Below, one piece after another: positions 34,220-37,046 of a stretch of 64,000 nt of DNA (the first letter of the stretch is position 1; every line of letters begins with the position of its first letter). Under the pieces are notes generated by a model that was not told the DNA's origin, ran no database searches, and was given only the letters and a program-made list of their open reading frames with translations. Source of the DNA: an uncultured Latescibacterota bacterium (GTDB taxonomy: Bacteria; Latescibacterota; UBA2968); contig OX638329.1 in assembly GCA_951812755.1 (NCBI GenBank), forward strand, positions 5,667,563-5,731,562. The letters are read 5' to 3'. The position numbers were made by a program, and so were the translations under genes.

Positions 34220-34228
34220 ATTACCTCT

Positions 34229-35932
34229 TCAAATGTTAAATGATATCTGCCATATACCCGCAGCCTGTCTCGCCATCCACTCCTGTCGAGAGCGAACCTT
34301 ATCCATGGTCCACATATCGTATTCTTGCGACAACTTGCGGGTTATGGAGAACTCACTCGCACCATAAACAGGGCACTTTTCAGGGAACCTCGCATTTCCG
34401 ATACTTCGATTAGGAGCCGCTTCCAAGAGTGTCATATTACCCAAACGATAGGTAGATGCTTCCCTCTGCCGATCATCGAACGCCTCCCAGCCATCGCCAG
34501 GATTCTCTGGCAATACATGCTCAATACTGTACTTCGCGCTCTCAAAATCAAACCGTTTTCCGGATACGTGCTCTTCCAAACGGAACAAGATAAAACGCGC
34601 TATCTTCTTGTTGCGACTGCTGGAAGTCCGCAGTGCTTTATTGGAAAAAGCCGTTCTGAACTCTCCATCCCCGGGATAAACCGGACGCAGTGCCGCAATC
34701 GCAGCAGCAACACTATCAATACGACCTTCTGAAATTCCGCAAGCGATCTGGTTATACACCACTTCCTGCTCATTGCTTTGGCGACCGCATATCACATTGT
34801 AGCGAAAAGACACCACTGCGATAGCTCTCAAAAATCGCCCAAACCCGGCCCTATCGTCTTCCGCAAAACGATCATATACCGCCATCAACACCGCCAGGGG
34901 TTGGCGCACACTGAACATCTGCAACTGTGCCAGATTATCGCGCTCCTTCTCTGTCCATAAACCGTCCTCCGCGCTACGTAACGCCGTATAAACCCGTGCA
35001 TACCTATCTATATCGCGAATTAACGCAAATGCCTTTCCCCTGTCGTTGATCGCGTCGCGGATGGTCTTGAACAAGTAGGTCCTGCGTACCAACCTGTTGC
35101 GACTATTCCAGAACACGCGCAAAAACTCTGGAAAACTTTCGCTACCCAGCAACCCGACGATATCCTCCCAGCGATTTTCCAGTGTCTTGAGTTCAGATTC
35201 ATGCATGCCGCCTCGAGATATGACTGAAAATAAGTAATTCTTCAGCAAATCCGTTGCAGACAAACGCACACCGCGAGCATTCAACGTCTCGAAGACTTTG
35301 AAGGCATTTAACTCATCCGTAACTGTGATAACCGTAAAGAATAGCTTATCCACTGCAACATCAACAAAGCGCGCTACCGCCTCACCATCGTCCTGTGAGC
35401 GTTCTTTTACACGCTCCTTGAAGAAGGTAAAGGCCCGGCGTAGTAAATGCTCCGAGGCGTTCAGACCTCGTTGCGGCAAACGCTCTAAGGGAACGAGATA
35501 GTTCTGGTAAAATCCATCGTCGTGGCGATTCAGAGTCAGCTTGGAACGCGCCACCAAACTCACCGGATCCAGATAGCCGATGTAGTTGTGACGCAACTGC
35601 TGCGCGCGCTGGTACTGCGGGTCGTTCAAGTCCCCCGGCACTGCCAAATCCGTTAAATGCGATACCGCTGCCAGCATCAACAGGCTAAGTGTCGTCATGC
35701 GTTGCTGCCCGTCAATAATGTCGAACACCCTGTTGTCAGAGGATTGCAGCACCAAATAGCCCATATAATGCGCTGGCTCCGGATCCTCGCCAAACAGCCC
35801 GACAATGTCTTGCCACAGGTCATCCCATTCATCGCCCCCCCACGAGTAGTCGCGCTGAAACGTCGGCACGCAATAACTCAGCCCATTGCCCATGAGTTGG
35901 CGAAAGGTACTATTGGTGGTGTTAAAATTCAT
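34229..35932 (-). CDS. DUF262/DUF1524 (GmrSD-like) protein, putative type IV restriction nuclease
   Basis: A 567-residue fusion. The N-terminal DUF262 has VPTFQRDYSWGG (~22-33) and the DGQQR nucleotide-site motif VFDIIDGQQRMTTLS (~68-82). The C-terminal DUF1524 has the HNH-type motifs SIEHVLPENP (~460) and LGNMTLLEAAPNRSIGN (~498). Characterised homologues (GmrSD, SspE-like) cleave modified phage DNA using nucleotide binding by DUF262. Its ATG overlaps the stop of the truncated PIN gene by 4 bases, so it appears translated from the toxin-antitoxin transcript. A homologue-length single polypeptide suggests it is intact. Confidence 0.9.
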   Translation of the reverse strand: MNFNTTNSTFRQLMGNGLSYCVPTFQRDYSWGGDEWDDLWQDIVGLFGEDPEPAHYMGYLVLQSSDNRVFDIIDGQQRMTTLSLLMLAAVSHLTDLAVPGDLNDPQYQRAQQLRHNYIGYLDPVSLVARSKLTLNRHDDGFYQNYLVPLERLPQRGLNASEHLLRRAFTFFKERVKERSQDDGEAVARFVDVAVDKLFFTVITVTDELNAFKVFETLNARGVRLSATDLLKNYLFSVISRGGMHESELKTLENRWEDIVGLLGSESFPEFLRVFWNSRNRLVRRTYLFKTIRDAINDRGKAFALIRDIDRYARVYTALRSAEDGLWTEKERDNLAQLQMFSVRQPLAVLMAVYDRFAEDDRAGFGRFLRAIAVVSFRYNVICGRQSNEQEVVYNQIACGISEGRIDSVAAAIAALRPVYPGDGEFRTAFSNKALRTSSSRNKKIARFILFRLEEHVSGKRFDFESAKYSIEHVLPENPGDGWEAFDDRQREASTYRLGNMTLLEAAPNRSIGNARFPEKCPVYGASEFSITRKLSQEYDMWTMDKVRSRQEWMARQAAGIWQISFNI

Positions 35933-36033
35933 GTGTAGTCAATCAAGCTGGTAGGAATGAATTGTTTTCTGGCATGGTACTGGTCGCCGGCATCGAGCAG
36001 GGCGACCAAAGGACCTGTATCAGTCAGCGTCAT
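35929..36033 (-). pseudogene. Truncated VapC-type PIN toxin gene
   Basis: A 34-codon frame begins at ATG 36031-36033, overlapping the antitoxin stop (ATGA), and reads MTLTDTGPLVALLDAGDQYH before a foreign-looking tail and a stop. DTGPLVALLD is the first strand and catalytic Asp of a PIN domain; the rest of the ~130-residue domain is absent. The stop overlaps the DUF262 start (ATGA again). The toxin is thus cut off exactly where the DUF262/DUF1524 gene begins. It is not functional as a nuclease; it may serve as a translational leader. Confidence 0.75.
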
Positions 36034-36326
36034 TTCGATCTTCGCCGATGCTTTTTGATCAGTATCTCGGTGAACTTCCTGCCAGTGTCCTCCGACATGC
36101 GAGCACCGCCAGGGACGTGTTCACTGCTGTTCAGAACACCGACGTGATCGCGCAAAAACTCAGCCAGCATTCTTTTTTTTTCGGCCTCTGACTGCGCGTC
36201 ACAAGCCAACTCCGGCGCGAAACGCTCCCGCAGACTGTCGAGAGCGAGTTGTTCGGGTGTGGTTCCCAGTTTATGCGCCTGATCGGCCAACGCCTGCTCG
36301 ATATCAGGAGTAAGCGTAATAATCAT
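36030..36326 (-). CDS. VapB-type antitoxin
   Basis: The start is ATG 36324-36326 (MIITLTPDIEQALADQAHKL) with AAGGAG 7 bases upstream. The 98-residue protein has the compact strand-helix-helix beginning ITLTPDIEQALADQAHKLG..PEQLALDSLRERF typical of bacterial antitoxins paired with PIN toxins; the charged C-terminus would bind the toxin. Its partner is truncated, so this gene probably survives only as the promoter-proximal regulator of the DUF262 gene (inference). Confidence 0.8.
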   Translation of the reverse strand: MIITLTPDIEQALADQAHKLGTTPEQLALDSLRERFAPELACDAQSEAEKKRMLAEFLRDHVGVLNSSEHVPGGARMSEDTGRKFTEILIKKHRRRSK

Positions 36327-36572
36327 TGAGCGTCTCCTTGTATGTTTTCGCATAATACCAAATTCGCATTGTAAATTCAGGACGATTGTTATTGCTTAGC
36401 CGTTGGGCATGCATCCACAGATGGATCTTGTAATGCACACAAATATACAGATACAAACTGATGAATCGCTCTTGCCTAATCGCATCTCTCTGTTTCAACA
36501 AGAATAGCCTATTTCGCTTGTTCTTGCAATGCACACACCTTTTTTTCGCTGAGTCCTCACAAAACGGCTTCG

Positions 36573-37046
36573 TTAATCATCTCTCGGATCCGGATGGATA
36601 GGATCCACCCAATACACTTCCTCTGGCTCTTCAACAACCGGAATATCCAAATTCACAACCACAGGCTCCTGATCGCTGCGCACCAGCACGCATTCCAGAG
36701 GCTCATCTTCGCTGGCATTGATCTCCTGATGCGGCACATAGGGCGGCACATAAATAAAATCACCCGGACCCGCCTCCGCCACATACTCCAACTGATCGCC
36801 CCATCGCATGCGCGCCTTACCGCTTACCACATAAATCACACTCTCCAGCGCCCCGTGATGATGCGCCCCGGTCTTTGCATTCGGATGAATCTCAACCGTA
36901 CCCGCCCACAACTTCTCGGCCCCCGCACTCGCCCGATTAATCGCCGCCGCCCGCGTCATCCCCGGCGTCTGCGGCGTATTAAAATCCAACCGATCACCCG
37001 TCACCACCCGCACCCCATGATTTCGCCAATCCTTATTTTCTAACAT
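36573..37046 (-). CDS. Cupin-domain protein
   Basis: A 157-residue single cupin. Motif 1 is KTGAHHHGALESVIYVVSG (His/Glu metal ligands, ~60-78) and motif 2 is GDFIYVPPYVPHQEIN (~97-112). Small cupins act as metal-dependent dioxygenases, isomerases or binding proteins. GGGAGG precedes the ATG. It lies 20 bases after the sulfatase on the same strand, within the PhyH/sulfatase cluster, so a role in processing the same substrate is likely. Confidence 0.88.
   Translation of the reverse strand: MLENKDWRNHGVRVVTGDRLDFNTPQTPGMTRAAAINRASAGAEKLWAGTVEIHPNAKTGAHHHGALESVIYVVSGKARMRWGDQLEYVAEAGPGDFIYVPPYVPHQEINASEDEPLECVLVRSDQEPVVVNLDIPVVEEPEEVYWVDPIHPDPRDD

Follow-up and report, generated by a model that had tools for sequence, protein, structure and literature searches.

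Organization of the locus

The window, which is the whole 64,000-nucleotide stretch of DNA that we analyzed, belongs to a genome assembled as a single 6.53-Mb contig. On its minus strand, where all of the window features described below are located, open reading frame (ORF) analysis identified a three-ORF unit (34229 to 36326) that is present in one copy in the genome and consists of an antitoxin, a 34-codon ORF, and a nuclease. Both ORF-to-ORF overlaps are 4-base ATGA sequences, and the three frames and their overlaps lie exactly where an earlier sequence-only reading of this DNA had placed them. The first ORF (36030 to 36326) encodes a VapB-type antitoxin of 98 amino acids with 96% identity to the antitoxin adjoining an intact vapC in G009, one of ten congeneric genomes examined here. 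Comparison with that intact vapC divides the second ORF (35929 to 36033) into vapC codons 1 to 21/22 followed by vapC 3′ flank. The vapC-derived share amounts to 65 bases (35969 to 36033), and comparison of alleles places the breakpoint of a putative deletion at about 35969. The TGA of this stub overlaps the ATG of the third gene, bearing out the earlier statement that the nuclease gene begins at the stop of a vapC remnant. That third gene (34229 to 35932) is complete and encodes a 567-amino-acid DUF262 and DUF1524 protein, assigned to the HEC-06/GmrSD type by Pfam and PADLOC.

Upstream of the antitoxin lies a remnant of an IS982-family transposase gene, from its 5′ part (36372 to 36476). A fuller copy (L002), with 85% identity, is located elsewhere in the genome, and the same remnant is found upstream of vapB in G009. 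The left edge of the insert, 3′ of the cupin stop, is marked by GCCGTTTTGTGA (36557 to 36568), which is common to the nuclease-only allele of the congeners G005 and G006. At the right edge, the junction comparison identified ATTTAACATTTGAAGAGG (34224 to 34241). These bases belong to the empty cupin-HIBADH site, and the nuclease takes its final codons and stop from them.

An intact nuclease behind a truncated toxin

The nuclease is intact, conserved, and under purifying selection. Pfam recognized both GmrSD_N (DUF262, PF03235; E = 1.1e-34) and GmrSD_C (DUF1524, PF07510; E = 1.4e-27), and the protein matched the PADLOC HEC-06 profile over its full length (PDLC04154, residues 2 to 564 against profile positions 6 to 567 of 569; E = 8.6e-225). 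The DGQQR motif occupies residues 74 to 78, and D74-G-Q-Q-R78 is invariant in nine homologs. The HNH region (EHVLPENP...LGN...N...K) is likewise intact, with E471, H472, N499, N508, and K519 invariant in the nine homologs. Among 113 base changes there were 25 amino acid changes (dN = 0.020, dS = 0.27).

In having DUF262 and DUF1524 in a single chain with intact DGQQR and HNH motifs, the protein resembles HEC-06 (a Hma-embedded candidate in PADLOC) and the GmrSD type IV restriction proteins. It differs from HEC-06 in its leader, which here consists of vapB and the vapC stub and lacks a recognizable Shine-Dalgarno sequence of its own. Domain order and motifs are also those of DndI (PDB 9jfl) and SspE, which are phosphorothioate-sensing DUF262/DUF1524 nucleases, and DndI is the nearest solved chain (E = 1.3e-16 over residues 3 to 272). 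DndI recognizes phosphorothioate DNA and has DNA-nicking activity (PMC11662687), and antiviral activity has been reported for HEC-06 (PMC12988326). By analogy with studied members of this wider family, the nuclease is a probable phage restriction enzyme that would nick DNA in a nucleotide-stimulated, modification-sensing manner. Phosphorothioation of the Dnd type is an unlikely trigger, because a profile search of the window genome for the DndB family (PF14072), the one Dnd or Ssp family covered, found no member.

The stub is identical at 21 of 21 residues to the N terminus of the intact 136-amino-acid VapC of G009, and codons 22 to 136 are gone, in agreement with the earlier description of a PIN remnant without its catalytic remainder. 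The last ~12 codons of the 34-codon ORF are not VapC and apparently read through the old vapC 3′ flank. We take the PIN acidic residues to be D5, E44, D99, and D118 (G009 numbering) from alignment conservation and knowledge of PIN domains. The stub keeps D5 only. Because this first acidic residue alone remains, the stub cannot be an active ribonuclease, and the truncated toxin is predicted to be dead. The intact VapC family appears to be PIN-like, since its profile matched VapC26 (PDB 5x3t; E = 8e-10) and one of the five members scanned had a Pfam PIN match (5.9e-10). The locus thus shares with VapC26-like type II VapBC operons a vapB gene and a vapC start with the usual overlap but differs in that its VapC is cut to 22 codons.

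A profile scan of the antitoxin returned no Pfam or NCBIfam match. It differs from its G009 counterpart at 4 of 98 residues and by 13 base changes (dN = 0.018, dS = 0.147), values that include the G009 branch and cannot show continuing selection on the orphan vapB. The VapB alleles of the window (36030 to 36326) and of another congener, G004 (L080, 4816 to 5142), agree in their C-terminal half but not in their N-terminal half, which looks like an exchange of the DNA-binding part.

Alleles of the junction among congeners

We located the cupin-HIBADH junction by its cupin gene and read it in ten congeners (G001 to G010). In five of them (G001, G002, G003, G007, and G010) the junction is empty, with ~26 bp between the two genes, confirming that the unit interrupts this junction in the window genome. 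G009 carries the antitoxin and an intact 136-amino-acid VapC directly before HIBADH, with the same IS remnant ahead. The sequence-only reading had proposed looking in relatives for an intact vapBC or an uninterrupted junction, and both exist. A variant antitoxin, an intact VapC, and two DndB-like genes occupy the junction in G004, while G005 and G006 have the nuclease without vapBC, ~66 bp after the cupin gene and with 96% protein identity. Finally, no HIBADH gene adjoins the cupin gene in G008. Features of the G009 and G005 alleles are therefore found together in the window genome. Taken as a whole, the junction (window positions 34220 to 36575; L072 to L081) is a variable cargo site with empty, vapBC, vapBC plus DndB-like, nuclease, and mixed states.

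Two of these genomes have further content of note. In G004 (L080, 1702 to 4518), the two DndB-domain genes are opposite in strand to vapBC, and one has a Swt1-like HEPN domain. G008 holds a decayed copy of the nuclease in which codons 1 to 77 are joined to codons ~489 to 559 (L093, 6429 to 6831); an intact DSR2-like gene and ORFs resembling transposases are nearby.

Divergence of the cargo follows that of its surroundings. Nucleotide identity between the window genome and G009 was 97.0% for the sulfatase gene, 96.5% for cupin, 96.5% for HIBADH (part of the gene only), and 95.6% for vapB. Against G005, it was 94.7% (sulfatase), 94.0% (cupin), and 94.7% (HIBADH), and for the nuclease it was 93.5 to 94.0% (G005/G006). 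Because each diverged at about the rate of its flanks, neither vapB nor the nuclease was recently acquired. In a tree of the flanks, the window genome was sister to G009 (0.998) and G005 grouped with G006 (0.992). G002 groups near G005 yet has an empty junction, and a loss or exchange is therefore needed.

Breakpoint and footprint

We read the junction breakpoints from pairwise comparisons rather than from a multiple alignment. The stub matches VapC through CATGCCAG and continues with AAAACAATTCAT, which in turn matches the 3′ flank of intact vapC (GTGAAAACAATTTAT in G009 and GCGAAAACAATTCAT in G004, with a looser match, GCAAAAACAAACCAT, in G034, a genome from another family of the class). In G009 coordinates, the window lacks 358 bp, which begin at vapC base 66 and end 12 bases beyond the stop. 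Because the break is followed by a match to vapC 3′ flank, an internal deletion of vapC is indicated.

The 13-mer GAAAACAATYYAT stands 3′ of intact vapC in G009 and G004, 3′ of the stub in the window, and 5′ of the nuclease in the vapBC-less genomes G005 and G006. In the window we annotated GAAAACAATTCAT (35957 to 35969), which has the same placement in those four genomes, as a footprint of the vapC 3′ flank. We read the 13-mer in the G005/G006 leader as the footprint of a lost vapBC. Beyond it, the spacer differs between the window genome and G005/G006 and is too short for a sure alignment. A genome search of the window genome with the longer pattern GYGAAAACAATYCAT gave no exact match and only two one-mismatch matches, and we rejected the idea that the region is a genome-wide repeat.

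Origin of the arrangement

We consider it probable that the arrangement arose by a 358-bp deletion inside vapC in a tandem of vapB, vapC, and the nuclease; this judgment covers both an ancestral tandem and one formed when alleles recombined. The cupin-HIBADH junction would once have carried vapB and vapC, followed by a type IV-like restriction gene of the HEC-06 (DUF262/DUF1524) kind. In the window genome, the deletion would have run from vapC codon 22 to 12 bases past the stop, joining the start of vapC to the nuclease leader, whereas the lineage of G005 and G006 would have lost vapBC and kept the nuclease. We infer the tandem origin and the order of the deletions from these alleles; the intermediate is likewise only inferred, because none of the sampled genomes has an intact vapC directly before this nuclease.

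How the tandem itself formed is a separate matter. A vapBC allele and a nuclease allele could have undergone homologous recombination, crossing over near the common 13-mer, with the vapC deletion following later; to this possible route we give the smaller part of our confidence in the tandem. The genus does contain both alleles at a single site whose flanks are nearly identical, but identities along the segments have no mosaic step, and present genomes cannot separate this route from an ancestral tandem.

Alternatively, the IS982 remnant, vapB, and vapC codons 1 to 22 could have arrived as one fragment that entered the leader of an existing nuclease-only allele of the G005/G006 kind. Set against the G005 leader, GCCGTTTTGCGA^AAACAATCCAT, the window does read as a clean insertion (GCCGTTTTGTGA, insert, AAACAATTCAT). 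However, the AAACAATYCAT part is vapC 3′ flank in G009 and G004, and hence a vapBC footprint in G005/G006. Moreover, the remaining leader differs by more than the 5 to 6% of the flanks, and there is neither a transposase beyond the remnant nor a target duplication. We regard this origin as unlikely.

The sequence-only reading had instead proposed that the nuclease gene inserted into vapC, capturing the antitoxin promoter and leader, possibly with VapB autoregulating it. It rightly recognized that a restriction gene adjoins a truncated vapBC at the cupin-HIBADH junction, and the ATGA overlaps and the start of the nuclease at the stop of the stub are in keeping with insertion. But the nuclease is found in G005 and G006 at the same junction without vapBC, at a nucleotide identity (93.5 to 94%) close to that of the flanks, and what lies between stub and nuclease is a match to the 3′ flank of vapC. 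In addition, the 3′ part of vapC is absent beyond the nuclease, a genome search finding the 22-codon piece only. Comparison of the congeners' alleles led us to reject this candidate, which we hold very improbable. An assembly or sequencing artifact is less credible still, given the open reading frames, the one-contig genome, and the divergence of both halves from relatives to the same extent as their flanks.

Translation of the nuclease gene

The first ATGA overlap is the normal vapB-vapC overlap: vapB remains upstream with its overlap with the toxin start retained, and the intact pair of G009 has the identical ATGA. For the second, ATGA occurs at the nuclease start position in 45 of the 70 homologs that aligned to residue 1, so its bases come with the nuclease gene. 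The chance of the second overlap, meaning the right phase and an open frame for 13 codons with equal codons assumed, is ~0.18. Because the start context is common in homologs and the overlap is not improbable by chance, the second ATGA is weak evidence for selected coupling.

Assuming the standard anti-Shine-Dalgarno sequence, the nuclease leader of the window genome paired at +0.6 kcal/mol, compared with −2.8 in G005/G006, −4.2 in G042/G034, −8.5 for vapB, and −5.2 for HIBADH, and by this measure no Shine-Dalgarno sequence was recognizable at the nuclease start. With none left before the gene, translation of the nuclease may depend on coupling. It would then proceed, at least in part, by termination-reinitiation from vapB through the vapC stub to the nuclease. 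Such coupling to vapB and the stub is reasonable, although we advance it tentatively and at somewhat less than even confidence. A promoter and terminator scan of the region found none, including no sigma-70-like promoter, as candidates were no more numerous than by chance. We also considered whether the truncation is adaptive, with orphan VapB and the stub acting as a translational and regulatory leader to control how much of a self-toxic nuclease is made. The toxin-antitoxin operon would thereby have been rebuilt, a restriction enzyme replacing the toxin, which we think quite improbable.

Linkage of vapBC, DSR2, and HEC-06 beyond the genus

Outside the genus, vapBC-nuclease linkage was found in G034 and G042 only, and both belong to the phylum of the window genome. 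G034 has vapB, an intact vapC, a 1,241-amino-acid DSR2-like gene, and the first ~26 codons of the nuclease in a row. In G042 the row is vapB, a DSR2-like gene, and an intact nuclease, with vapC missing. The DSR2-like gene, related to the SIR2-type defense protein DSR2, thus separates vapBC from the nuclease in G034 and immediately precedes the nuclease in G042. The DSR2-HEC-06 pair, separated by a 20-bp gap, might be a functional unit. A genome search found no DSR2 in the window genome, and the portions of the literature that we consulted hold nothing on DSR2 with DUF262 beyond general review coverage. These vapB-(vapC)-DSR2-like-HEC-06 rows are those of two genomes of another genus (L083, 1336 to 5944; L082, 550 to 6510).

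The expectation that VapB and DUF262 genes would adjoin in many genomes was not upheld. Among 80 homologous loci (51 to 96% identical, with <7 kb of flank where contigs were short), neither this vapB nor this vapC was an annotated neighboring ORF in any. ORF selection in these loci drops short genes under longer frames and could hide a few vapB genes. Indeed, in the G042 contig, which is one of the 80, selection missed a vapB two genes upstream of the nuclease that tblastn found, and this record alone has DSR2 beside the nuclease. On the basis of these loci, which come from many phyla, we rejected a recurrent VapB-DUF262 partnership. Many of the nuclease homologs stand alone, and some adjoin long genes that, by length and sequence start only, resemble restriction or BREX components.

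Other ORFs were seen near these genes. An ORF of ~70 amino acids (MKDDPIVAEVRAIRDELAAQCGYDIKEIF...) recurs beside defense genes (L082, 6533 to 6742; L083, 1127 to 1339; L086, 6189 to 6494; L088, 5705 to 5908), and the one copy scanned had no confident Pfam match. In a Cytophagales contig (L172, upstream of 5643), a short ORF and a second ORF, by eye PIN-like and HigA-like, respectively, stand just before a homologous nuclease.

Implications

The arrangement is real and was correctly described from sequence, while its main step was wrongly explained. Our comparison suggests that the locus is a decayed piece of a variable defense-gene site, mostly an ordinary relic left by an ordinary deletion. 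It is a degenerate defense locus with a member of HEC-06, and it carries a warning that an antitoxin beside a nuclease should not be taken as a functional pair. It also offers a readable example of defense-site turnover, with empty, toxin-antitoxin, nuclease, and mixed states at one junction of one genus. What is new is the lack of a recognizable Shine-Dalgarno sequence before the nuclease, so that coupling may now matter. Through the proposed deletion, a restriction gene now reads from what was a toxin operon. If shown, coupling would illustrate how such genes accidentally gain new control, for which this locus would be a small test case.
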